Source: Pedobacter ginsengisoli | GTDB lineage: Bacteria; Bacteroidota; Bacteroidia; Sphingobacteriales; Sphingobacteriaceae | NCBI RefSeq assembly: GCF_002736205.1 | Contig: NZ_CP024091.1 | Location: 930,001-994,000, forward strand | Reading direction: 5' to 3' | DNA: 64,000 nt | Shown here: one piece after another, positions 3,038 to 14,900 of the stretch | How the letters are laid out: each line of letters opens with the position of its first letter | Numbering within the stretch: position 1 is the first letter of the stretch | The notes under the pieces: model-generated | Database searches by the model: none | What the model was told of the DNA's origin: nothing | Seen by the model: the letters and a program-made list of their open reading frames with translations, nothing else | Translations under genes and position numbers: made by a program

Positions 3038-4801
3038 ATGCAAAATAGAATATATTTATTGGTCCTTACAGCAATGATATTTTTATCTGCCTGTAAAAAG
3101 GATTTTTTAGACAGAACCCCCGAAACAAGTATCAGTGAAGCGGAGTTCTGGAAAACATCAAATGATCTGCAACTTTATGTTAATAATTTTTATACCGCAT
3201 TTCCATCTACAATTGGATCATTTGGAACTATAGGCCCATATGGATTAGATGCAGATGATGGTAGCGACAATATGATCACCATGTCTGTTAATGGTACAAT
3301 GAACGGTACGCGAATAGTGCCAAGTTCTGGTGGAGGCTGGGCATATGGAGATTGGAATACCCTAAGGAACATTAATTACTTTATGATAAATTATAATAAA
3401 GTAAATGCAAGCTGGGATAATAAGAAAACTTACGTAGGAGAAGCTTTGTTCTTTCGGGCCTGGTTTTACTTTAGTAAGATAAAGCAGTTTGGTGATGTGC
3501 CTTGGGTTAATAAGCCATTAGATATTACATCTGGAGAACTTAAGGCACCAAGATTATCAAGAGCGGTAATAGTTGATTCCATTATGAACGACCTGGATAA
3601 AGCTGTTCAATATTTACCTTCAAAGGGTGCAGCTCAGGCTTCAAGGGTAAATAAGCAGATAGCACAATTGCTTCAGGCCAGAATTGCCCTTTTTGAAGGT
3701 ACCTGGGAAAAATACCATGCTAATACTTCGTTTGGAGTTACAGGGTCTGACGGAAGTAAGTTCCTTCAGAAAGCAGCCTCAGTATCGGGTGATTTGATCG
3801 CAAATTCAGGTGGGTATGCACTTGTGGCAACACCAGGAACCGATGGCTATTGGAAACTCTTTAATCAGACAAATTATAGCGCAAATACTGAAGTCATGCT
3901 GTGGAGACAATATGATTTAAATACCAATGGAGGTCATTATTGGCATAGATATACAGGCTCGGGCGCAGGACGTGGACTTACCAAAAATCTGGTCGACTAT
4001 TATTTGTGTACTGATGGAAAACCTATTACCGGAAATGCTTTATACCAGGGAGATGCTACACTTCAAAATGTAGTTAAGAACCGTGATCCGAGAATGGTAC
4101 AAACCATTTACGTTAATGATGGTAACCACATACTAACTAATAACAGACCTAATGGAGCTGCTACCACACTTTTTGAAGTTCCTTCATTTACTGCGGCAAA
4201 TGAAACAAAACCAGCCACAGGATACCAGGTATATAAAGGTCATAATCCTGATTTTAATCAGCAACAGGATAGAGGTACAACAGGATATATTATCTTTCGT
4301 TTTGCTGAAGCATTATTAATTAATGCTGAAGCAAAAGCGGAATTAGGAACACTAACACAAACCGATGTTGATATTACAATTAACAAGTTAAGAAGTAGAG
4401 TAGGAATGCCTAATTTAAACATCGGTGCAATTACGAGCGATCCTAAATGGGAATTTCCTGCACTGGGGCCAGTTATTAACGAAGTTAGAAGAGAGCGTAG
4501 AATAGAGCTGGCTTGCGAGGGCTATCGCAGAGATGACATCTATCGTTGGGCTGCTGCAGATGAATTAATTGTAGGTTGGAAACCAAAAGGCGCAATGCTA
4601 AGCCAGTGGATTGGTGTAGTTCCGGCTGCAAATCTTTCTTCTTATCCCGTAGACGAAAATGGTTATATCGAATTGTTTAAAAACCAGGCATCATTAAGCA
4701 CTGGATATAAGTTTAATGTATTAAGAGATTACCTGTCGCCAATACCGACAGATCAGATGGTAATTAATCCTGATATTAAACAAAATCCCGGGTGGCAATA
4801 A
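3038..4801 (+). CDS. SusD/RagB-family surface glycan-binding lipoprotein
   Basis: A 587-residue lipoprotein. The frame is open from 2996, but the ATG at 3038 is preferred because it places a short hydrophobic signal directly before the lipobox (F-L-S-A-C, Cys19) followed by K-K-D, typical of surface-exported Bacteroidota lipoproteins. The SusD helical fold is indicated by the A-L-F-F-R-A-W-F-Y-F motif, the late E-V-R-R-E-R-R-I-E-L-A motif and the C-terminal N-P-G-W-Q ending. It should cap the SusC barrel encoded just upstream and deliver glycan to it. A strong terminator follows immediately, so SusC-SusD ends here and the next gene (sulfatase) has its own transcript. Ligand cannot be read from sequence. 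Confidence 0.95.
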   Translation: MQNRIYLLVLTAMIFLSACKKDFLDRTPETSISEAEFWKTSNDLQLYVNNFYTAFPSTIGSFGTIGPYGLDADDGSDNMITMSVNGTMNGTRIVPSSGGGWAYGDWNTLRNINYFMINYNKVNASWDNKKTYVGEALFFRAWFYFSKIKQFGDVPWVNKPLDITSGELKAPRLSRAVIVDSIMNDLDKAVQYLPSKGAAQASRVNKQIAQLLQARIALFEGTWEKYHANTSFGVTGSDGSKFLQKAASVSGDLIANSGGYALVATPGTDGYWKLFNQTNYSANTEVMLWRQYDLNTNGGHYWHRYTGSGAGRGLTKNLVDYYLCTDGKPITGNALYQGDATLQNVVKNRDPRMVQTIYVNDGNHILTNNRPNGAATTLFEVPSFTAANETKPATGYQVYKGHNPDFNQQQDRGTTGYIIFRFAEALLINAEAKAELGTLTQTDVDITINKLRSRVGMPNLNIGAITSDPKWEFPALGPVINEVRRERRIELACEGYRRDDIYRWAAADELIVGWKPKGAMLSQWIGVVPAANLSSYPVDENGYIELFKNQASLSTGYKFNVLRDYLSPIPTDQMVINPDIKQNPGWQ

Positions 4802-4812
4802 CCTCCTCCCAC

Positions 4813-4852
4813 AAAAAAACACTGACTTAGTTTGCTAAGTCAGTGTTTTTTT
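4813..4852 (+). terminator. Rho-independent terminator after SusD
   Basis: A perfect 18-base inverted repeat (4813-4830 and 4835-4852) with a four-base loop (TTTG). The arms carry A7 and T7 at their outer ends, so the hairpin can act on both strands. It closes the SusC-SusD unit 12 bases after the stop codon. Confidence 0.9.
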
Positions 4853-4918
4853 GAAACAAAATTTATCTATAATTCCTTAATTTGCGTTGACCAAACCTGG
4901 TATATAAACACCTTTCAG

Positions 4919-6415
4919 ATGTCGAACCACAATCTTATTAAAATAATTGCTTTTCTGCTATTTACAAATCTTACAGCTGTAGCTCAACAGAATCCAAAAA
5001 AGCCTAATATCATTTACATTTATGCCGATGATATGGGGTATGGAGAGATAGGCCCCTATGGGCAAAAGCAAATTAAAACACCTAATTTAGATAGGATGGC
5101 TAAAGAAGGGATAAAATTTACCCAGCATTATACCTCAACCCCTGTATGCGCCCCGGCTCGCTGTATGCTTATGACCGGAAAGCATGGTGGCCATTCTTAT
5201 ATCCGTGGGAATTATGAGATGGGCGATTTTACCGATGAGAACGAAGGGGGCCAGATGCCATTGCCTGAAGGTATATTTACCCTTCCAAAAATGCTTAAAT
5301 CAGTTGGCTATAGTACCGGTATTATTGGTAAATGGGGCTTAGGGATGCCTTTTAATACCGGCGACCCTAATAAGCAGGGATTTGATTATGTGTATGGCTT
5401 TTTGGACCAGAAACAGGCTCATAACCATTATCCTACACATCTTTGGGAAAATGGGAAAAAAGATATGCTGAATAACCCATATGTCTTTATGCATAAGAAC
5501 ATTGATTCAGCTAAGGCTAAAGATGCAGATTATGATAATTTTATAGGAAAAGACTATGCAGGAGCAAAATTTACGGAAAAGAGTCTGAAGTTTATTGACG
5601 ATCACAAAAATAAACCATTCTTTCTGTATATACCCTTTACTATTCCACATGTAGGATTACAGGCACCAACCGAATATGTAAACCAGTATATAGGTAAGTT
5701 CCCAGGTGAACATCCTTATTACGGACAACAGGGCTACAACCCCTCAAAATACCCCTTATCAACCTACGCGGCAATGATTACTTACCTGGATCATCAGATT
5801 GGGGTTATTATAGATAAAGTTAAAGCTTTGGGGCTTGATAATAATACCATTATTATGTTTTCGAGCGATAACGGTGCAACTTTTAATGGCGGGGTTCAGG
5901 CAAAATATTTTAATAGTTTGGCCGGCTTACGAGGATTTAAAATGGATCTGTTTGAAGGGGGGATTCGTGAACCTTTTATCGCCCGCTGGCCAGGAAAAAT
6001 TAAGGCCAATAGCGTTAGTGATCTTATTTCTGTTCAATTTGATATGATGGCAACTTTTGCCGAAATTTCAGGAGGAAAGGCTAATAATACAGACGGTATT
6101 TCCTTATTGCCAACTTTGCTTGGTAACATAAAAGCTCAGAAACCAAGAGAATATATTTATTTCGAATATCCAGAAAACGGAGGGCAGGTAGCAATACGCA
6201 TGGGGAACTGGAAAGGCCTGAGATTAAATGTGCGCAAAAATATTGACAGCCCTTGGATGCTGTTCAATCTTAAAGATGATTTCGCAGAAACTACCGATGT
6301 TTCAGCACAACATCCCGAAATAATAGCAAAGTTTAAACTTATACAAATTAAAGAACATCAAAATTCCCACATCAACGATTGGGAATTTCTAAACAGCAAA
6401 ATGGTTAAGAAATAG
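4919..6415 (+). CDS. Secreted type I sulfatase (formylglycine-dependent)
   Basis: A 498-residue hydrolase removing sulfate from a carbohydrate or other ester. The ATG at 4919 is chosen over the open frame from 4832 because the earlier frame starts inside the preceding terminator, while 4919 gives a good signal peptide (hydrophobic to A-V-A-Q, about residue 22). The alkaline-phosphatase-like fold shows the metal pair D37-D38 and the sulfatase signature C77-A-P-A-R81, in which Cys77 is oxidised to formylglycine by an anaerobic-type maturase not encoded in this window. The later S-S-D-N-G motif supplies further metal ligands. S1 family; subfamily cannot be assigned by eye. A possible promoter (TAATTTG at 4878-4884) lies in the gap. 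The neighbouring SusC/SusD suggests a sulfated glycan; the TonB receptor behind a poly-Cys leader downstream suggests a link to sulfur supply. Confidence 0.93.
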   Translation: MSNHNLIKIIAFLLFTNLTAVAQQNPKKPNIIYIYADDMGYGEIGPYGQKQIKTPNLDRMAKEGIKFTQHYTSTPVCAPARCMLMTGKHGGHSYIRGNYEMGDFTDENEGGQMPLPEGIFTLPKMLKSVGYSTGIIGKWGLGMPFNTGDPNKQGFDYVYGFLDQKQAHNHYPTHLWENGKKDMLNNPYVFMHKNIDSAKAKDADYDNFIGKDYAGAKFTEKSLKFIDDHKNKPFFLYIPFTIPHVGLQAPTEYVNQYIGKFPGEHPYYGQQGYNPSKYPLSTYAAMITYLDHQIGVIIDKVKALGLDNNTIIMFSSDNGATFNGGVQAKYFNSLAGLRGFKMDLFEGGIREPFIARWPGKIKANSVSDLISVQFDMMATFAEISGGKANNTDGISLLPTLLGNIKAQKPREYIYFEYPENGGQVAIRMGNWKGLRLNVRKNIDSPWMLFNLKDDFAETTDVSAQHPEIIAKFKLIQIKEHQNSHINDWEFLNSKMVKK

Positions 6416-6423
6416 AGGTAATA

Positions 6424-6640
6424 TCAGCCGTTGATAATTTCACCTCCATTAGGGTGGAGGATTTGGCCTGTCATGTAGCTTGCATCGTCAGATGCCAGAA
6501 ATTAATGCAACTTTACCCTTTAGTTTATAGGTAGGCTCCTTTGGCTCAAACAAAGGATTAGGTTTCATAGCAGTTTCCCTTCCCGGCTGATTGCGCTGGC
6601 GTTGTTTAGGTCTAAGTTGTTTTTGTTGTACTGGCTTCAT
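6424..6640 (-). pseudogene. Internally deleted remnant of an SDR-family oxidoreductase
   Basis: Read on the minus strand, 6640 down to about 6490 encodes the start of a YdaD/YhdF-type short-chain dehydrogenase: a basic Gln-rich N-terminus, then P-L-F-E-P-K-E-P, K-L-K-G-K-V-A-L-I-S-G, the beginning of the Rossmann fold. The frame then stops (I-stop). Immediately downstream in another frame, about 6490 to 6424, comes the exact end of the same family: A-S-D-D-A-S-Y-M-T-G-Q-I-L-H-P-N-G-G-E-I-I-N-G-stop. Roughly 200 or more internal codons are missing, including the catalytic S-Y-K residues and most of the NAD site. This is a dead gene with a clean internal deletion, so the flanking intergenic space was once a full gene. 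Confidence 0.85.
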
Positions 6641-6727
6641 AACTGTAAATAGGAGGTATGTAAATACAACAATATTTAGAGCAAATGGTTGCATTTAAAA
6701 AATAAACTACTAATTCCATAGATTTAA

Positions 6728-6757
6728 TTGTTTCTTTTAGAAATAGTATTATATTTG
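6728..6757 (+). promoter_or_regulatory. Bacteroidota-type promoter (-33 TTG, -7 TATATTTG)
   Basis: TTG at 6728-6730 and TATATTTG at 6750-6757, a perfect match to TAnnTTTG, separated by 19 bases. This is the layout known for primary-sigma promoters of Bacteroidota. Transcription would begin near 6764, about 30 bases before the poly-Cys leader ORF and about 280 bases before the TonB receptor start codon. Confidence 0.75.
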
Positions 6758-6792
6758 CAGAATTAAATAACGGTTTTATACCCTGCAATCAA

Positions 6793-6882
6793 ATGAAAAC
6801 AGATTTACATTTTATAAAAATGAAAAGAAAAACATCTGCAAAAGGAATGCATTTCCTTTTAGACTGTTGTTGTTGTTGCTGA
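6793..6882 (+). CDS. 29-residue leader peptide ending in five cysteines (putative attenuator ORF)
   Basis: ATG at 6793, stop TGA at 6880-6882. The peptide is short and basic (M-K-T-D-L-H-F-I-K-M-K-R-K, then T-S-A-K-G-M-H-F-L-L-D) and ends in five consecutive Cys codons, TGT four times then TGC, directly before the stop. It has no signal peptide or membrane segment and is too short to fold as a domain. It starts about 30 bases after the predicted transcription start and lies 164 bases before the TonB receptor. A perfect 8-bp hairpin (6840-6847 with 6853-6860) precedes the Cys codons, and further hairpins follow the stop. Runs of one amino acid at the end of a leader peptide are the mark of translation-coupled attenuation, and polycysteine leader ORFs are known to respond to cysteine in mycobacteria. 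Function here is inference; an internal start at 6820 is also possible. Confidence 0.6.
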   Translation: MKTDLHFIKMKRKTSAKGMHFLLDCCCCC

Positions 6883-6890
6883 TTCAGTGT

Positions 6891-6988
6891 GCTGTAATCA
6901 CAGCTAAAACTAACACCTGTAAATTTTAAATAATAATAATTAGGGATGTCAAAAAAACATCCAGCTGGCATTGCTTTGCAATTTTTTT
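6891..6988 (+). promoter_or_regulatory. Structured leader with terminator-like hairpin between poly-Cys ORF and TonB receptor
   Basis: Three small hairpins follow the leader ORF: GCTGT/ACAGC at 6891-6904, GGATGT/ACATCC at 6944-6962 around an A-rich loop, and ATTGC/GCAAT at 6970-6982 running into seven T residues (6982-6988), which has the form of a weak intrinsic terminator. AGCTGGCA is repeated directly on both sides of that last hairpin. The set fits an attenuator whose folding depends on ribosome position in the Cys codons, but the competing pairing was not worked out. Confidence 0.4.
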
Positions 6989-7046
6989 AGCTGGCAATAC
7001 CAATATGTTAATCCTCATAACCAAACAATCATTTAATAATAAAATC

Positions 7047-9626
7047 ATGAAAAAAAGTTTACTTATTCTCTTTTCATTAATACTTTCGGCAGGAGTTGCT
7101 TTTGCCCAAAACAAAGTAACGGGAATTATAAAGAGTGCAAGTGGCACTCCGGTACCAAATGCAACTGTGCTTATCAGGGGTACTAAGATTACCACATTTG
7201 CTAATGATAAAGGCGAATTCAGCATTACTACAGAGCAAGAGCCACCATTCTATATTCAAGTTAGCTCAGTTGGCTATAAAGCTCAGGATTTTCAGGTTTT
7301 GAAATTTCAGGATACTCCTTTAGAATTAACCCTTGTTGAAAATGCTCAGCTAGACGAAATTGTAGTAACTTCAAGAAGACGCTCTGAGGTTTTACAGGAC
7401 GTGCCTATTGCAATTTCAGTTATTGGTGGCCAGGCCGCAGAAAATGCAGGAGCTTTTAACGTTAACCGTTTAAAAGAGCTGGTTCCATCTGTTCAGTTAT
7501 ATGCCTCAAATGCAAGGAACACTACACTTAACATCAGAGGCTTAGGCTCTACATTTGGGTTAACCAACGATGGTATTGATCCCGGAGTAGGTTTTTATGT
7601 TGATGGGGTTTATCAGGCTCGTCCGGCTGCAACTTCTACAGATTTTCTTGATATTGAACAGATAGAAATCCTTCGTGGCCCTCAAGGTACCTTGTTTGGT
7701 AAAAACACAACCGCAGGTGCCTTTAACATCACTACTACAAAACCTACGCAGGTTCCAACTGCAAAAGTTGAACTTAATGTTGGAAACTATAACTTCATGC
7801 AGGCAAAAACATCGGTTTCGGGAGCAGTAGCTAAAAACCTTGCCGCAAAATTAGCCATCTCGGGTACTCAGAGAGATGGTACGATCTGGAATACCAGCGA
7901 AGAGCGCAGATACAGCGGTCAAAATAACCTTGGGTTTAAAGGTCAGCTATATTTTACTCCTTCAGATAAACTACAGATATTGTTAAGCAGCGATGTGAGC
8001 ATTCAGCATCCGGCAGGTTATCCATTGGTAATTGCAGGTGTAACTACTACAGAGAGAAGTGCATACCGTCAGTACGCCAAAATTATCTCCGATTTAGGAT
8101 ACGAACAACCTAAAATAGATCCTTTTTCAAGAAAGATCAATACTAATACACCTTGGAAACAAGACCAGTCAATTGGAGGTATCTCTTTAAACGTAGATTA
8201 TAAAATAGGAAACGGAACACTTACATCTACTACTGCATGGAGGTTCTGGAACTGGGATCCTACAAACGACAGGGACTTCTCTGAAGTGTCTGCATTAACC
8301 AAATCACAAGGTAACTCACGTCATGATCAATATTCGCAAGAAGTTAGATATGCCGGTAATATCTCTGAGAAAGTAAGTGGCGTGATCGGTGTATTTGCAC
8401 TTGCTCAAAATTTGAAAGGTTTATCTCAGACCGAAGAGGTAGGTAAAGATCAATGGAGATTTGTACAAACATCTGCAACTGGTGCTCAGGCAGGTTATAC
8501 CACACCTGGTTTGTTAGATGGTTTTGGCATCAAAACCAATTCAACCATCAAATCATTAAGTACTGCAATTTTTGCGCAGGCCGATTGGGAGTTTGTTGAA
8601 CATTTGCATGTTTTACCTGGTTTAAGGTTCACTTACGATAAAAAAGATGTTGATTACGACAGAACAACCTACGGAGGCCTTCAAACTACTGATGCTGCCT
8701 TACTTGCCCTTAAAGCTGCTGTTTATGCCAATCAACAATTCAATACCAGTACCGATAACAATAACTTATCTGGTAACATTACCTTATCATACCGTCCAAC
8801 CACTAAGTTAAATGTGTACGGAACTTTCTCTACCGCCTATAAACCTGTTGGTGTAAACGTAGGAGGTTTGCCAACTACAAGTAACGGAACAGCCGATTTG
8901 TCTCTTGCGGTAGTAAAACCAGAATATGTTCAGCATTATGAATTTGGCTTAAAAACAAAGCCTGTTAAAGGTTCAATTGTAAACGTTACAGCTTTTAATA
9001 CAGATATTAAAGATTATCAAACCAATGTACAATCTCCACAGCTAGGAGTAAACAGAGGTTACCTTGCAAATGCAGAAAAAGTAAATGTAAAAGGTATTGA
9101 AATTGACGGAAGCTATCAATTAGAACGTTTCTTAAGCATAAATGCCGCTGTAGCCTATCTGGATGGTAAATATAAAAAATTTACCAATGCTCCACTTCCT
9201 TTAGAAGAAACTGGTCATACTGAGCTTGTTAATGGTACAGCTACGCAGGTTGCATTTAAAGATGCTTCAGGAGGCAGATTGCCTGGTATTTCTAAATGGA
9301 ATACCTCAGGAGGTGCTGAATTTAGTGCCCCCGGTAGAGTAGGCTCAAGAGATGGCAGGTTCTTTATTGCCGGTGATGTGAGCTACCGTTCAGAATACTC
9401 TTCAAATCCAACTCCATCAAAAGTGTTAAATGTTGAAGGATACACACTTATAAATGCAAGAATTGGATTCAAATCAGATAAAATATCCATTTTTGGCTGG
9501 AGCAGAAACATAGGAAACACCCACTACTTTGAACAATTGCAGGCTGCTGCTGGTAACTCTGGCTTATATGCCGGTGTACTTGGCGATCCAAGAACTTATG
9601 GCGCTACATTACGCTATTCTTTCTAA
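7047..9626 (+). CDS. TonB-dependent receptor without SusD partner
   Basis: An 859-residue outer-membrane receptor. The ATG at 7047 is preferred over the open frame from 7005 because it begins M-K-K-S-L-L and gives a clean signal peptide ending A-F-A-Q near residue 21. A carboxypeptidase-regulatory-like domain (about 22-105) is followed by a plug with L-Q-D-V-P-I-A-I-S-V, L-N-I-R-G-L-G and I-E-I-L-R-G-P-Q-G-T-L-F-G-K, then a barrel ending R-Y-S-F. The plug resembles proteobacterial-type receptors for small molecules more than SusC, and no SusD follows. It is a single-gene unit, with its own promoter and structured leader upstream and a strong terminator downstream. The poly-Cys leader and adjacent sulfatase suggest a sulfur-containing substrate; this is inference. 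Confidence 0.93.
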   Translation: MKKSLLILFSLILSAGVAFAQNKVTGIIKSASGTPVPNATVLIRGTKITTFANDKGEFSITTEQEPPFYIQVSSVGYKAQDFQVLKFQDTPLELTLVENAQLDEIVVTSRRRSEVLQDVPIAISVIGGQAAENAGAFNVNRLKELVPSVQLYASNARNTTLNIRGLGSTFGLTNDGIDPGVGFYVDGVYQARPAATSTDFLDIEQIEILRGPQGTLFGKNTTAGAFNITTTKPTQVPTAKVELNVGNYNFMQAKTSVSGAVAKNLAAKLAISGTQRDGTIWNTSEERRYSGQNNLGFKGQLYFTPSDKLQILLSSDVSIQHPAGYPLVIAGVTTTERSAYRQYAKIISDLGYEQPKIDPFSRKINTNTPWKQDQSIGGISLNVDYKIGNGTLTSTTAWRFWNWDPTNDRDFSEVSALTKSQGNSRHDQYSQEVRYAGNISEKVSGVIGVFALAQNLKGLSQTEEVGKDQWRFVQTSATGAQAGYTTPGLLDGFGIKTNSTIKSLSTAIFAQADWEFVEHLHVLPGLRFTYDKKDVDYDRTTYGGLQTTDAALLALKAAVYANQQFNTSTDNNNLSGNITLSYRPTTKLNVYGTFSTAYKPVGVNVGGLPTTSNGTADLSLAVVKPEYVQHYEFGLKTKPVKGSIVNVTAFNTDIKDYQTNVQSPQLGVNRGYLANAEKVNVKGIEIDGSYQLERFLSINAAVAYLDGKYKKFTNAPLPLEETGHTELVNGTATQVAFKDASGGRLPGISKWNTSGGAEFSAPGRVGSRDGRFFIAGDVSYRSEYSSNPTPSKVLNVEGYTLINARIGFKSDKISIFGWSRNIGNTHYFEQLQAAAGNSGLYAGVLGDPRTYGATLRYSF

Positions 9627-9640
9627 GATTGTTATTTAGT

Positions 9641-9692
9641 AAGCTATAGAAAAAGGGCTATTCTCATTGGAATAGCCCTTTTTCTATAGCTT
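9641..9692 (+). terminator. Strong terminator after TonB receptor
   Basis: A perfect 22-base inverted repeat (9641-9662 and 9671-9692, AAGCTATAG ... CTATAGCTT) with an eight-base loop. The right arm contains TAGCCCTTTTTCTA, so there is a T-run within the stem. It ends the monocistronic receptor unit. Confidence 0.8.
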
Positions 9693-9718
9693 AAAGCCAT
9701 TATTTTTTATTTGAATTT

Positions 9719-9748
9719 TTGCCATTTTATGATCGTTCCATACCTTTT
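9719..9748 (+). promoter_or_regulatory. Probable promoter of small lipoprotein gene
   Basis: TTG at 9719-9721, 19 bases, then TACCTTTT at 9741-9748 (seven of eight matches to TAnnTTTG). Predicted transcription start about 9755, leaving a leader of some 60 bases before the ATG at 9816. Confidence 0.4.
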
Positions 9749-9815
9749 TCTTAAGCTATAATGCACCTGTTGGCATGGCCTTTGTAATAGCTATGTTACA
9801 TCAAAACATCAAATT

Positions 9816-10190
9816 ATGAAAAAGACAATGAGAATTTTCAGTCTACTTTTAATTGCTACGACGGTTATGATCGCCTGTAAGAAAGACACAGATCCGGCAG
9901 ACAAAGACTTCTTTGTGGGGACCTATAGAGGATCTATTTCTTATCAAAAAGATGACAACACAATAACCAGTTCGGAAGGGAAGGTTACAGTGAGTAAAGT
10001 CGGAGAGACTTACAATTTTTTCTTTGGCAATAATATTCCTGATATAAAGGGAGTGAAGTTTGAAAAATCCAGCGACAATAACTATGTCAGCGTGGGAAGT
10101 GGAGTAACTGGTATTTCAATTAATGCCAGTACCTTAAAAGTGTTAGTTTCAAATAATGGAGCTACCTGGACAGCTGATTGCACCAGGTAA
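9816..10190 (+). CDS. Small lipoprotein of unknown function
   Basis: A 124-residue protein with a clear lipoprotein signal (V-M-I-A-C, Cys21, followed by K-K-D-T-D), so it should be lipidated and probably surface-exposed or held in the outer membrane. The mature part alternates short beta-type segments (V-G-T-Y-R-G-S-I-S-Y, G-K-V-T-V-S-K-V, Y-N-F-F-F) and ends with W-T-A-D-C-T, consistent with a small beta-barrel or lipocalin-like fold, but I do not recognise a named family. It has its own probable promoter and terminator and is not part of a PUL. Function unknown. Confidence 0.85.
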   Translation: MKKTMRIFSLLLIATTVMIACKKDTDPADKDFFVGTYRGSISYQKDDNTITSSEGKVTVSKVGETYNFFFGNNIPDIKGVKFEKSSDNNYVSVGSGVTGISINASTLKVLVSNNGATWTADCTR

Positions 10191-10217
10191 TAAACAGCAA
10201 TAAATTAAGCTTATTAG

Positions 10218-10246
10218 AAAACCCGTCATTAATGGCGGGTTTTTTT
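10218..10246 (+). terminator. Terminator after small lipoprotein gene
   Basis: Stem AAAACCCG / CGGGTTTT extended inward by CATT/AATG with one G-U pair, running into a T7 tract. A second, separate stem, AAGGCTATC/GATAGCCTT, follows at 10261-10284. Confidence 0.75.
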
Positions 10247-10361
10247 ATAGGGCAAAAATTAAGGCTATCTGAAAGGATAGCCTTAAAAACCAAATATAAA
10301 TTAAAATGAGTATTAATGTTTGTGCTTCACAGCATGGAACGTTGCTTTACCGTACTGACTT

Positions 10362-10405
10362 TATTATTATTCTTCTATGTTTACATTATTGGAAGAATAA
10401 TAATA
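10362..10405 (+). repeat. 14-bp inverted repeat upstream of histone-like gene
   Basis: TATTATTATTCTTC at 10362-10375 is matched exactly by its reverse complement at 10392-10405 with a 16-base loop. It lies about 50 bases before the start codon of the Hc1-like gene and could be an operator or mRNA leader hairpin. The loop begins with TATGTTTA, close to a -7 box, but no -33 TTG is at the right distance. Confidence 0.5.
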
Positions 10406-10456
10406 GCTATCCAATGCCAGAAACTAAATAAATAACAATAATTAACTTAAAACACT

Positions 10457-10636
10457 ATGAGCAAGTTCGCGAAATTAAAAGAGGTAGTGGCCTCAGTAGA
10501 AACAGATGTAGAAAAATTTTATAATGCGGGTAACAGTGCTGCGGGTACAAGAGTGCGCAAAGCTTTACAGGAAATTAAAGGCCTTGCCCAGGAAATCAGA
10601 ACGGAGATTACTGAAAAGAAAAACCAGGGAAAATAA
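10457..10636 (+). CDS. Hc1-like histone H1 family DNA-binding protein
   Basis: A 59-residue basic protein beginning M-S-K-F-A-K-L-K-E-V-V and containing E-K-F-Y-N-A-G-N and A-A-G-T-R-V-R-K-A-L-Q-E-I-K, the pattern of the short histone-H1-like (chlamydial Hc1-related) proteins that are common, usually single-copy, in Bacteroidota. Such proteins are thought to bind and compact DNA; the cellular role in free-living Bacteroidota is poorly defined. The predicted structure is nearly all helix with evenly spaced Lys/Arg. The gene stands alone between a terminator-rich region and a strong downstream hairpin, preceded by a 14-bp inverted repeat. The length and start match the family. Confidence 0.85.
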   Translation: MSKFAKLKEVVASVETDVEKFYNAGNSAAGTRVRKALQEIKGLAQEIRTEITEKKNQGK

Positions 10637-10672
10637 GTTGTTGCGATCTTAGACCATACAATTTGTACACTC

Positions 10673-10732
10673 ACCCAATTGATCAGGAAAAGCGTTACTC
10701 GAGCTATCCTGATCAATTGGGTTGATTTTTTT
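10673..10732 (+). terminator. Terminator after Hc1-like gene
   Basis: A perfect 16-base inverted repeat (10673-10688 and 10707-10722, ACCCAATTGATCAGGA) with an 18-base loop, followed by GATTTTTTT. It lies between the convergent Hc1-like and histidine kinase genes; the T-tract is only on the plus side. Confidence 0.8.
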
Positions 10733-10741
10733 ATACCCTAA

Positions 10742-11920
10742 TTAATCCTTAAATGTTAGCACAAATTTTACACCCTCATTAACCTTGCTTTCTACATCAA
10801 TATGCCCACCCAAGCTATTAATATGATTGTACACCAGATAAAGGCCAATACCTTTACTTTCTGTATGATTGTGAAATGTTTGGTGCAAACCAAATATTTT
10901 GTGTTTAACCTTTTCCATATCAAAGCCCTGGCCCTGATCAGTAAAAATCAATTGATGTACACCATTTGTTTTTCTGGTAGCGATAGAAATATCAGGGTGC
11001 GAGTCTGGCTTTGCATATTTTATTGAGTTTGTGATCAGGTTAAGGAATATACTATCCATGTAAACCCTGTTAAAGTTTATGGTTTCAAACTCCGAAAAAT
11101 CAATATTAATAATAGCTCTGGAGCCAAGTATCAGCGAATTTATCGATTGAAATACTCCTTTCAGAGACTGATGAAGATTCAGATCCTCAGTAGGTACATG
11201 TACGCTTTTTTTCTCGCTGGCTGCGTCCAGATAATAGTTTAAAGTAACCTTAAGCCCTTCTGTTGTAGAGTGTAATATATTTACCAGGTTTTTGGTCTCT
11301 TTATCCTGAATGGTCGAAGTATCTAAAAGGCTAAATATAGCAAGCAAATTGTTTACAGGAGCTCTTAAATCGTGCGAGGCCATATGAGTTAAGTGCTGCA
11401 GTTCTTCATTAATCTTCGAAAGGCTAATTAAAAGTTTGTTCCGTTCCTCCTCAAGTTTCTTTTTGTGGGTTACATTCTTGGCAATTGCATAAACAAGTTC
11501 CGATTCTGGAACAGGAATTGAAGTCCATGATAACCAAACAATTTCACCCTTTTTAGTCTGATAGCGGTTTTCGAAATTTAAGAGCGGAAGGTTTTTTCTG
11601 AGGTTTTTTCTAAGTTCTTCTGTAATATTCTTGTCCTCCTCATAAACAAAACTATTAATCGGTCTCGAAAACAACTCCTCGTTGGTATATCCTAAAAGTT
11701 TAGAAACCGCCGGATTGATTCTTTTAAAATAGCCATCAAACCCCGCAATACACATTAGATCCTGAGAAACTTCAAAAAAGGGTTCGCTATCAAAATGATC
11801 TAAAGAAATTCGGAATTGGTTATTGGCTTTAGGTATCATAGGCCCAGATATTGTTTCCCCTTTTGTAAGGTTAATTGCTGTTTTCGTATTAAATCTACTA
11901 AAGTTTAGCAACTTGTTCAT
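10742..11920 (-). CDS. Cytoplasmic PAS-domain sensor histidine kinase
   Basis: A 392-residue kinase with no membrane segment or signal peptide. A PAS domain spans about residues 48-155 (D-L-M-C-I-A-G-F-D-G, L-L-G-Y-T-N-E-E-L). A short coiled coil follows, then the dimerisation/phosphoacceptor segment with H183 in M-A-S-H-D-L-R-A-P-V-N, and a HATPase domain with N-box N-L-I-T-N-S-I-K-Y-A (N298 region), G1 D-Q-G-Q-G-F-D and G2 K-G-I-G-L. The PAS presumably senses a cytoplasmic signal and H183 passes phosphate to a response regulator. No receiver gene is adjacent, so it is an orphan kinase. The gene converges on the histone-like gene. Signal unknown. Confidence 0.93.
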   Translation of the reverse strand: MNKLLNFSRFNTKTAINLTKGETISGPMIPKANNQFRISLDHFDSEPFFEVSQDLMCIAGFDGYFKRINPAVSKLLGYTNEELFSRPINSFVYEEDKNITEELRKNLRKNLPLLNFENRYQTKKGEIVWLSWTSIPVPESELVYAIAKNVTHKKKLEEERNKLLISLSKINEELQHLTHMASHDLRAPVNNLLAIFSLLDTSTIQDKETKNLVNILHSTTEGLKVTLNYYLDAASEKKSVHVPTEDLNLHQSLKGVFQSINSLILGSRAIINIDFSEFETINFNRVYMDSIFLNLITNSIKYAKPDSHPDISIATRKTNGVHQLIFTDQGQGFDMEKVKHKIFGLHQTFHNHTESKGIGLYLVYNHINSLGGHIDVESKVNEGVKFVLTFKD

Positions 11921-12217
11921 TTTATTCAGTGATGAATTATTTGTTTTTTATGGCCATTTATCATGAAAAGCACTTATTTGTTTGATACTCATTTGGTTTT
12001 ATTTTTTACGAAAAGTGAAATAAAAATGATCCGGAAGTTGGCAATGCCGTTTTTTAGCATCATTTAGGCAATTCTCAATTGAATAAGCAATGTATAATAA
12101 TTGTATTTGCATTGTTTAAACATTGTATAAACCCTCATCTTTTTACTAATTTGGTTCTTATTTCTAAGACAGAAATGTTAAGAATACTACCATTGTAAAA
12201 AACTAAAAAAGAATAAA

Positions 12218-13129
12218 ATGCTGATAGAACCAAACATTAGATTAAGCCGGATTCTTAGAAATACATGGCAGGTAGATATCATTATGATTATCTCCTGTAT
12301 AGCAGCCTACCTGGTGCGGACGGTTTTAATCAGGCATCACTTTGAAATTCCCTCTATAATTCCTACAGTTTTAGGTACAGCCATTGCTTTTTTTGTGGGT
12401 TTTAATAACAATCAGGCTTACGACCGCTGGTGGGAAGCCCGAAAAATATGGGGATCACTTGTAAACGATTCCCGATCATGGGCAAGGAGTATAATCAGCT
12501 ATGTTTCGCAGGGCAAAGCCGATGATCTGCAATATGCTATTGTAAAAAAGAGACTGGTGTACCGCCAAATTGCATTTTTATATGCACTGAAAGCCAGATT
12601 AAGAGACGCTGTTGATGAAACCTACAGCCAATATCTTGAACCTCATGAAAAGGAGGAAATCAAATTGCAGGGTAATATAGCCAATGCCATTCTGATGCAA
12701 CAGTCCAAGGCACTGCAACAATTGGAAAAAGAGGGGATGATTGATAGTTTTCGCTTTATTGAAATGAACCAATTACTGGTTAAACTTTGCGATGCGATGG
12801 GCATGACTGAGCGTATTAAAAACACTATATATCCAACCGCCTATATTTATTTTACTAAAGCCTTTATATGGCTTTTTGTGGTGTCGCTTACACTGGTTAT
12901 AAGTGCCTTTGCAGGTGTATGGTCTATATTTTTAGGATGGCTGGTAGGTTTTGTGTACGTATCAACTCAGATCAATGGGATGAGCCTCATGAACCCTTTC
13001 GATAATAATTCGGCAGCAGTTCCATTAAATCAAATTACCCGTACTATAGAGATCAATCTTTTAGAAATGCTTGGCGAAACCAATATACCCGAGCCTGTAA
13101 AGCCAATTAATAATGAATACGTGCTTTAA
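12218..13129 (+). CDS. Bestrophin-family (UPF0187/YneE-like) membrane channel
   Basis: A 303-residue inner-membrane protein. Hydrophobic segments lie at about 20-38, 47-62, 210-228 and 230-247. The family signature sits after the second segment: G-F-N-N-N-Q-A-Y-D-R-W-W-E-A-R-K-I-W-G (61-79), then S-R-S-W-A-R. A cytoplasmic helical section separates the membrane pairs and a conserved N-P-F-D segment follows the last one. Bacterial bestrophin homologues form pentameric ion channels (the Klebsiella one is cation-selective). The gene is apparently monocistronic; the 297-base gap before it holds a possible promoter (TTG 12123-12125, TAATTTG 12147-12153) but no other gene. It is not linked to the glycan functions. 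Confidence 0.9.
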   Translation: MLIEPNIRLSRILRNTWQVDIIMIISCIAAYLVRTVLIRHHFEIPSIIPTVLGTAIAFFVGFNNNQAYDRWWEARKIWGSLVNDSRSWARSIISYVSQGKADDLQYAIVKKRLVYRQIAFLYALKARLRDAVDETYSQYLEPHEKEEIKLQGNIANAILMQQSKALQQLEKEGMIDSFRFIEMNQLLVKLCDAMGMTERIKNTIYPTAYIYFTKAFIWLFVVSLTLVISAFAGVWSIFLGWLVGFVYVSTQINGMSLMNPFDNNSAAVPLNQITRTIEINLLEMLGETNIPEPVKPINNEYVL

Positions 13130-13235
13130 GTTTTTTACAGAAAAGACCATAAATTTTACTCGGCAATAATTGTATTTTTTTAGTTACTTTTAGCAGCTGT
13201 TCAGGCCACCTAATGCCTTACAGGCCGATTTAATA

Positions 13236-13811
13236 ATGGGGAACTATTCAAAACATACTGATGAAGAACTAGCCTTGTTGTTAAAACAAGCTGGCCCCGA
13301 GATTTTTAAAGAAATTTACGATCGGTATTGGGATAGATTACTTAATGCAGCCTATAAAAGGGTTAGAAACACCGAAACTTGCGAAGAAATTGTACAGGAT
13401 GTTTTTACAAAACTCTGGACAAACAGGGCTTCGCTTGTATTTACAACCGGGCTGGGTAATTATCTGTATACCGCTGTTAGGTACAATGTGATAGATCATT
13501 ATAGAAAACACGCCGTAAGGGAGAGTTTTATCAGCTCCGAACACGCTCATATAAAACTTGATAATTCTACAGAAGAATATGTTTTTCTTAACGATTTGAA
13601 AAAGCACATTGATATGATGATTGCTAAACTGCCTGATAAATGCCGCTCTGTTTATCAATTAAGCAGAATCGAGTTTAAAACAAATAAAGAAATTGCAACT
13701 GAGCTGAATATCTCTGAAAAGACTGTAGAAGGCCATCTAACAAAAGCACTACATAGCTTAAGAACAACGATTGCCGACCTTATGCCCATTTTATTATTTT
13801 TTTTAAAATAA
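13236..13811 (+). CDS. ECF RNA polymerase sigma factor, paired with FecR
   Basis: A 191-residue sigma-70-family factor. Region 2 is visible in Y-D-R-Y-W-D-R-L-L-N-A-A-Y and E-E-I-V-Q-D-V-F-T-K-L-W; region 4 in L-P-D-K-C-R-S-V-Y-Q-L-S-R, N-K-E-I-A-T-E-L-N-I-S-E-K-T-V-E-G-H-L. It should recruit RNA polymerase to the SusC-SusD promoter downstream when released by FecR. The FecR-type anti-sigma gene follows by 72 bases and an STN-bearing SusC after that, the standard order of a trans-envelope signalling PUL. The match to the bestrophin gene upstream is only positional. Confidence 0.95.
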   Translation: MGNYSKHTDEELALLLKQAGPEIFKEIYDRYWDRLLNAAYKRVRNTETCEEIVQDVFTKLWTNRASLVFTTGLGNYLYTAVRYNVIDHYRKHAVRESFISSEHAHIKLDNSTEEYVFLNDLKKHIDMMIAKLPDKCRSVYQLSRIEFKTNKEIATELNISEKTVEGHLTKALHSLRTTIADLMPILLFFLK

Positions 13812-13883
13812 GTTAAATTTCTAGCAAGGGTTATGCTGTTGTTATACGACATGCTATAAATAACCAATAGAGTTTAACGAAGT

Positions 13884-14900
13884 ATGGACAATTTACAGCT
13901 TTCCAAATTATTGGAAAATTATATCAATGGCAATTGCACGCCCGAAGAGGTTTCAATGGTAAATCATTGGTATGATCAATATCAGGACAGTCCTAACCTT
14001 GTTCAGGGTTTATCCGAAGAAAATCAAAAACTACTAAAAGACAAGATCTTTTTAAATATAATAGCATCTTCTGATGAAGCAAACATCCCTGTTGTACCAT
14101 TAAAATCAACACCAAAAATTGCTGCAAAGTGGCTTAAATATGCTGCGGCAGTAATTTTGGTGTTGTCTGTTGCCGTTCTTTTTTTTAACAGAGAACAATT
14201 GTGGAATAAACAAGATCAGGTGGCCAGCCAGCAAATTCATTTGGTAAACAGGACCGATTTTATTGTTAAAAGAGTACTACCAGATCAAAGTGTTGTTTAT
14301 TTAAGTCCTCAGGCTAGTTTAACTTATCCATTGGAGTTTAAAAAGAATTCAAGAGATGTGGTTATGGAAGGGGAGTGCTTCTTTGAGATCACTAAAAATC
14401 CTGACAGGCCATTTATAATCAATAGCAATCACATTATTACCAAGGTGTGGGGCACTAGTTTTAGAATTTCAGATCATATAAATAGTGCTTCGGCAAGTGT
14501 AATAGTAGTAACAGGTAAAGTTTCTGTAAGTAAAAAAATTGTTGGCAAAAACGATGTTAAAACAGCCGATGAAGTGTTTCTGCTGCCTAAAGAAAGCATT
14601 GTTTTTAAGAAGAAAAAAGATGCACTTTATAAAAACAAACAAACAGATATGTCGTCCCTTACTATCTGGAACCACGTTGATCTGTCATTTAATGATAAAA
14701 AACTGTCAGAAATAGTGCAAGTACTCAGCTCAGAATTTAAGGCCACCATAAAAGTAAAGGATGAGGAGTTAAACAAAGTAGTGATGAATGCAGATTTGAC
14801 CGATCTGAATTTGCCGGATGTATTGGAAGTGCTTAAAACTTCATTAAATCTGGAATATCACATTAATGATGATACCATTGTTTTAACCAAAAAGAATTAA
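13884..14900 (+). CDS. FecR-type anti-sigma factor
   Basis: A 338-residue single-pass inner-membrane protein. The N-terminal cytoplasmic part (1-85) should hold the sigma factor; one membrane segment lies at about 86-101 (Y-A-A-A-V-I-L-V-L-S-V-A-V-L-F-F). The periplasmic FecR domain (about 120-215, containing G-E-C-F-F-E-I-T and V-W-G-T-S-F-R-I) is followed by a DUF4974-type STN-like C-terminal domain (about 268-337). It receives the signal from the STN domain of the SusC encoded next and controls the sigma factor encoded just before. The 200-base gap to SusC contains two hairpins, so SusC is probably transcribed separately. Confidence 0.94.
   Translation: MDNLQLSKLLENYINGNCTPEEVSMVNHWYDQYQDSPNLVQGLSEENQKLLKDKIFLNIIASSDEANIPVVPLKSTPKIAAKWLKYAAAVILVLSVAVLFFNREQLWNKQDQVASQQIHLVNRTDFIVKRVLPDQSVVYLSPQASLTYPLEFKKNSRDVVMEGECFFEITKNPDRPFIINSNHIITKVWGTSFRISDHINSASASVIVVTGKVSVSKKIVGKNDVKTADEVFLLPKESIVFKKKKDALYKNKQTDMSSLTIWNHVDLSFNDKKLSEIVQVLSSEFKATIKVKDEELNKVVMNADLTDLNLPDVLEVLKTSLNLEYHINDDTIVLTKKN

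Follow-up and report, generated by a model that had tools for sequence, protein, structure and literature searches.

The short open reading frame (ORF) that ends in a run of cysteine codons ahead of a TonB-dependent receptor gene in Pedobacter ginsengisoli is likely to encode a cysteine-sensing leader peptide that responds to Cys-tRNA, belongs to a sulfur regulon and controls the receptor. This is considered likely because Cys-rich leaders precede the receptor at 53 of 80 loci in relatives, because leaders of the same kind recur at metY and at a PhyH-type dioxygenase gene, and because a receptor homologue (L183) lies among NIR_SIR, siroheme and cysteine-synthesis genes. The first-pass annotation of this DNA had combined a cysteine-sensing leader of a sulfur-related receptor with a terminator-based switch; the former part is supported here, whereas the latter is not.

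The window, i.e. the whole 64 000-nt stretch that was analysed, corresponds to positions 930001–994000 of a single 5.37-Mb contig. The leader ORF (MKTDLHFIKMKRKTSAKGMHFLLDCCCCC*) occupies positions 6793–6882 of its plus strand and comprises 29 codons, with the ATG at 6793, the TGA stop codon at 6880–6882, and five Cys codons, TGT TGT TGT TGT TGC (6865–6879, plus strand), directly before the stop as the presumed site of ribosome stalling. Re-reading of the sequence confirmed the ORF and its five Cys codons as first annotated, together with the −7-like box and its TTG, the 8-bp hairpin that AAAAGGAA and TTCCTTTT may form within the ORF, and the 5-bp stem followed by T7. Profile scans of the leader peptides gave no match in Pfam or NCBIfam, and an Rfam scan of the window gave no match to a known riboswitch or leader class at the gathering score. 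In this genome a sulfatase gene (4832–6415), itself behind SusC/SusD genes, lies directly 5′ of the leader. The SusC/SusD and sulfatase genes were considered as part of the unit and rejected, as by eye they are not beside the receptor in ten listed relatives.

Conservation and specificity of the cysteine run at receptor loci

A match to the receptor at E ≤ 1e-100 is present in 118 of 145 genomes of the genus, and the loci read comprise the 30 best of these 118 and, from another collection that covers largely the same species, 80 named loci. Under a relaxed rule, by which a short ORF with an ATG start must carry three clustered Cys (C.?C.?C) and lie ≤450 nt upstream, a Cys-rich short ORF is found 5′ of the receptor at 53 of the 80 named loci, with those at L183, L115 and a few others being weak. 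The remaining 27 range from two-Cys, scattered or broken leaders to no leader, and in some of them the promoter adjoins the gene. The Cys run is thus kept in most but not all relatives, and its conservation beside the same receptor, on which the first-pass annotation had staked its reading, holds at the majority of loci and fails at the others. As a short upstream ORF with a Cys run conserved across species, the window ORF has the makeup of a polycysteine leader.

Three leader forms are found at this one gene. In type A (24 sequences, including the window), the run lies at or near the C-terminus and the ORF ends 146–273 nt upstream of the receptor, whereas the run is internal in type B (21 sequences, including L183; ORF end 31–52 nt upstream) and in type C (9 sequences; 14–20 nt upstream). 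The remaining residues differ among the three forms, and it is the number of Cys residues that is kept, not their exact spacing (CCCCC, CNCCC, CYCCC and internal CCC). At the 80 loci, 45 of the 228 short ORFs that precede the receptor carry a strict CCC motif, as opposed to 1 of the 981 that precede other genes (Fisher p 2e-33, which overstates the difference because the sequences are related), and the lone CCC among the 981 is the PhyH leader in L115, itself such a leader. A search of the 145 genomes with a CCCCC-stop pattern gave many matches, and 24 of the 30 loci cut out overlap a long ORF on either strand, so that this pattern is useful only after context filtering. Among leaders picked for their length or motif, silent/replacement codon differences involving Cys number 39/78 in type A (13 leaders), 67/58 in type B (12 leaders) and 131/243 at metY (20 leaders), versus 220/682, 126/915 and 153/1009, respectively, at the remaining codons; the corresponding Cys value for PhyH is 100/0 by construction. 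In type A and at metY, Cys codons are often replaced.

Cysteine leaders at other genes

Within 2.10 Mb (39%) of the same genome, CCC occurs in 4 and CCCC in 3 of 1206 short intergenic ORFs 5′ of a same-strand gene, two of the four CCC ORFs (window and PhyH) being in the sample because they were known beforehand. Residue shuffles give expectations of 0.50 and 0.0145, respectively, with at least four CCC in 8 of 2000 shuffles and at least three CCCC in 0 of 2000. The four CCC ORFs precede the window receptor, the PhyH gene, metY and a SusC-type receptor gene at L278. For the PhyH-type dioxygenase, whose gene is present in 76 of 145 genomes and which has no solved relative by sequence, leaders are found at 30 of the 30 best loci, including L080 and L095. 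The metY gene is present in 94 of 99 genomes and is likewise preceded by leaders at 30 of the 30 best loci; 21 of these contain CCC, all 30 carry Met-Cys near the end, and those that lack CCC have a broken run, e.g. CMCSR or CMCFG.

At metY, a SAM-I aptamer (RF00162) was detected 5′ of the gene at 4 of 4 loci scanned, unlike in the window, where Rfam finds none. In the P. ginsengisoli genome the aptamer is followed 8 nt on by a conserved Cys/Met leader ORF (CMCCC) ahead of metY (L217:10370–10575, genome positions 2310370–2310575), and this arrangement is possibly a two-input leader. The metY frame itself is broken in this genome at about 11350–11377 of L217, either by a sequencing error or by a real mutation; the other metY loci listed have open frames of >430 aa. 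The best NCBIfam match of this metY (TIGR01326, 336 bits over the first 217 aa) falls under the cut-off (495.1), since the scan covered no more than the sequence ahead of the frame break.

The leader at L278 precedes an operon (4383–14500, minus strand) of SusC/SusD, two proteins without a Pfam match, an epimerase and an FAD oxidoreductase, and combines a CCCC run with the strongest promoter element; this operon is possibly a second sulfur import system, and the PhyH gene and the L278 SusC gene are putatively linked to the sulfur regulon. At L208:15040–15230 (minus strand), a NirA/sulfite-reductase-like operon with cysH and cysD has an apparently leaderless short ORF, MKTVNCSFNYVIMQCMKG, with two Cys and two internal Met codons; a hairpin resembling a terminator, with a T-run, comes after this ORF.

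Promoter and shared palindromic element

The sequence TATATTTG at 6750–6757 and the TTG at 6728–6730 (plus strand), separated by a 19-nt spacer, resemble what we take to be the Bacteroidota promoter consensus. Of 23 type A sequences, 13 carry TAnnTTTG and 10 carry TAnnTTCG no more than 80 nt 5′ of the leader ATG, the 24th (L125) being too short to judge. Upstream of this promoter lies a palindromic element, CTACTAATTCCATAGATT (6707–6724, plus strand; consensus CTACTAAATCTATAGATT), which is a candidate operator. At 72 of 80 receptor loci the 450 nt upstream contain a site that agrees with ACTACTAAATCTATAGATTT at 16 or more of 20 positions, versus 1 of 707 control stretches, the seed having been taken from the same receptor-locus alignments on which it was scored. 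An exact form of the element was found in 35 of 301 genomes of the family and in 4 of 25 genera, with none in the control columns.

A profile built from 38 distinct sites of relatives was scanned against 2.11 Mb of the P. ginsengisoli genome, and its two top scores fall at the L278 SusC promoter (29.8 bits) and at the window promoter (27.2 bits), both of which are followed by Cys leaders. Overall there is no excess of hits, as 16 exceed 12 bits (one place counted double, via L073 and L012) versus 10–25 with column-shuffled profiles; only the two top scores therefore stand out. The scores of the third intergenic hit (18.4 bits; L234, between a SusC-like and another gene), of PhyH (14.7 bits) and of the NirA/sulfite-reductase-like operon (9.1 bits) are indistinguishable from noise. 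Among PhyH orthologs, the element is retained with at least 14 of 17 matches in 24 of 28 cases, the maximum in 149 controls being 12 of 17, whereas metY is without the element (best match 12 of 17). Judged by sequence, the palindromic element is common to the receptor, PhyH and SusC promoters.

The receptor gene and its neighbourhood

The presumed regulated gene (7047–9626, plus strand) encodes a TonB-dependent receptor of 859 aa with CarbopepD_reg, Plug and β-barrel domains by profile matching, and is 94% identical in P. panaciterrae. Its matches to named families are mostly to siderophore and heme receptors, all below cut-off. In L183, a homologue with 65% identity is part of a cysteine-synthesis cluster, in which NIR_SIR, SUMT (uroporphyrinogen methyltransferase), the receptor, CysG-N (siroheme synthase N-domain), serine acetyltransferase and CysM (cysteine synthase) follow each other on one strand. 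A position ahead of sulfur or cysteine genes is seen directly for the sister leader at metY, and for the receptor only indirectly, through the distant L183 homologue. At 7 of 80 loci the receptor is followed, two or three ORFs further on, by a SUMT-like gene (profile-confirmed in L159). The receptor in L184 is preceded by an Rrf2-family regulator whose match to CymR falls short of the cut-off. At most Pedobacter receptor loci the neighbours are genes other than sulfur genes; the usual ones are presumably an IMP dehydrogenase and a LOG family gene. A PhyH gene lies directly 5′ of the receptor in L115, the sole such case noticed. The receptor probably imports a sulfur compound.

Leader RNA and the proposed switch

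If the ORF acts as a cysteine-sensing leader, a ribosome supplied with well-charged Cys-tRNA would translate past the Cys codons, and the leader RNA that follows would hold receptor expression low, whereas scarcity of charged Cys-tRNA would stall the ribosome in the run, allow the leader mRNA to refold and lead to synthesis of the receptor. Within this scheme we infer leader translation, ribosome stalling, the direction of the response and the substrate of the receptor. The same design may operate, with the promoter element, at the PhyH-type dioxygenase and the SusC-type receptor, and at metY with the SAM riboswitch instead.

In type A, comparison of relatives delineates a leader RNA (6902–6990, plus strand, in the window) with a GCTGT/ACAGC hairpin, a GGATG/CATCC hairpin and a TTGCTTTGCAA motif, which may serve as the switch. 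Standard pairs occupy 89.4% of cells of GGATG/CATCC versus 34.6–47.1% when the arms are slid (21 of 24 type A sequences), with weak covariation, and a TTTGCTTTGCAA-like motif is likewise kept in type A. At ATGGCTTTGCTTTGCAA (window 6970–6990), several relatives of type A have a possible second mini-ORF, MALLCNF, with a Cys codon; in the window its ATG is replaced by CTG. The fold of the whole leader is not unusual (z −1.43; 10 of 100 shuffled sequences fold equally well or better), and RNAalifold on 21 of 24 type A sequences (L109, L115 and L125 left out) gave no useful consensus, with a consensus energy of only −0.46 kcal/mol.

Pairing of the Cys codons with the RNA downstream (L183, L080, L095, L331 and L318 left out) is on average significant in type C only. 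In this form, seen in one clade, the UUGCUGU of the Cys codons is complementary to an ACAGCAA immediately 5′ of the receptor start in each of the 9 sequences, with duplex z-scores of −0.49 to −3.40 (mean −2.17). These pairs are nearly invariant, with both-sided change in 0 of 7. No significant pairing was found on average in type A (mean z +0.26), type B (−0.30), PhyH (−0.69) or metY leaders (−0.67); individual loci of PhyH and metY have values of −2 to −3.4. In type C, a ribosome stalled in the run would open the hairpin between the Cys codons and ACAGCAA, and the location of this pairing before the receptor start favours translational attenuation. Translational control is accordingly the favoured reading of these sequences over transcription termination, and for type A the comparison singles out no switch.

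Alternative explanations

Classical transcription attenuation, in which stalling in the Cys run would block an intrinsic terminator at about 6970–6988, corresponds to the switch put forward at first pass and appears unlikely. The window does contain a hairpin (ATTGC-TTT-GCAAT) followed by T7 at this position, a T-run of at least six behind the hairpin motif is found by script in 3 of 24 type A sequences (window, L108 and L169) and by eye in L112, and the two-Cys short ORF of the NirA/sulfite-reductase-like operon in the same genome is likewise followed by a hairpin and T-run. However, 20 of the 24 sequences of type A have no such T-run, only two of the base pairs in the hairpin are G-C and the terminator scan did not list it, and types B and C end 14–52 nt before the receptor start, leaving little room for a terminator. 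A conserved intrinsic terminator, as expected of a classical attenuator, was rejected on these grounds, and conserved transcription termination is unsupported because the hairpin with its T-run occurs in few of the 24 type A sequences.

It is quite improbable that the Cys-rich peptide, nascent or free, senses a metal (copper, zinc or iron) or redox state and that the receptor imports a metal chelate. The nearest named families and the solved relatives of the receptor are siderophore-type receptors, and the part of PMC9973294 available to us describes a nascent copper-sensing protein that controls translation, yet the same kind of Cys runs stands before metY behind a SAM riboswitch, the distant receptor homologue lies within a cysteine-synthesis cluster, the number of Cys residues is kept and their spacing is not, and by eye the leaders are without a signal sequence. 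Very improbable is a Cys run with no regulatory role, in which case the promoter element alone would control the receptor and the leader would be a remnant or a spurious ORF. The loss of the leader in some lineages and the presence of the element (≥16/20) at 21 of the 27 loci that fail the leader rule, among the 72 of 80 overall, speak for this reading; the recurrence of Cys runs above background in unrelated leaders at unrelated genes speaks against it.

Relation to known leader peptides

Polycysteine leader ORFs of mycobacteria are reportedly described by Canestrari et al. in 2020. This mycobacterial work is cited in PMC13236596 and PMC9094748, as seen in the accessible parts of both. Cys-run leaders of Actinobacteria are described in the accessible part of Seliverstov et al. 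2005 (PMC1262725), and those of mycobacteria include cases that lack a conserved terminator hairpin; in the sources as available, such leaders lie 5′ of cysteine genes and a cysteine response is proposed or shown. The Pedobacter leaders share with them the short ORF, the Cys-codon run and, as in mycobacteria, the lack of a conserved terminator. Unlike them, they belong to another phylum, precede a TonB receptor and a dioxygenase gene, have a common promoter element and, at metY, a SAM riboswitch, and occur in three forms at one gene. Unlike the leaderless start in Actinobacteria, the ATG of the window leader is found 35 nt downstream of the −7 box, with a predicted start site, and this leader is therefore probably not leaderless. 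Within the phylum, leader-peptide attenuation of amino-acid operons has been proposed in Flavobacterium psychrophilum (PMC9723704) and leader-like short ORFs are described in Bacteroides thetaiotaomicron (PMC7366714), with no cysteine-run leader mentioned in the accessible portions of these two papers. Our literature search, which extended to few subscription journals, found no report of a Cys-run leader in Bacteroidota. Most likely, the kind of element is the one known from Actinobacteria, and what is new is the phylum, the receptor and dioxygenase targets and the pairing with a SAM riboswitch at metY.

Taken together for Pedobacter and its relatives, we give about even weight to a broader reading, namely a sulfur regulon composed of the operator CTACTAAATCTATAGATT and of Cys-codon leaders, the latter preceding a dioxygenase and outer-membrane receptors that serve to take up and use organosulfur compounds, with a metY leader that reads both SAM and Cys-tRNA. 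In this reading the Cys run endures, whereas the remaining leader sequence and the switch architecture change among the three forms at one gene. If the cysteine-sensing leader is borne out, Cys-tRNA-sensing leaders would exist outside Actinobacteria and extend to outer-membrane import, and they would offer a handle on which TonB receptors, whose substrates are rarely known, import sulfur compounds. The metY leader, in which a SAM riboswitch runs into a Cys/Met leader, would constitute a two-input RNA switch. Initiation in Bacteroidota is mostly without Shine-Dalgarno sequences, and the phylum would thus provide a setting in which to study ribosome stalling under this mode of initiation.
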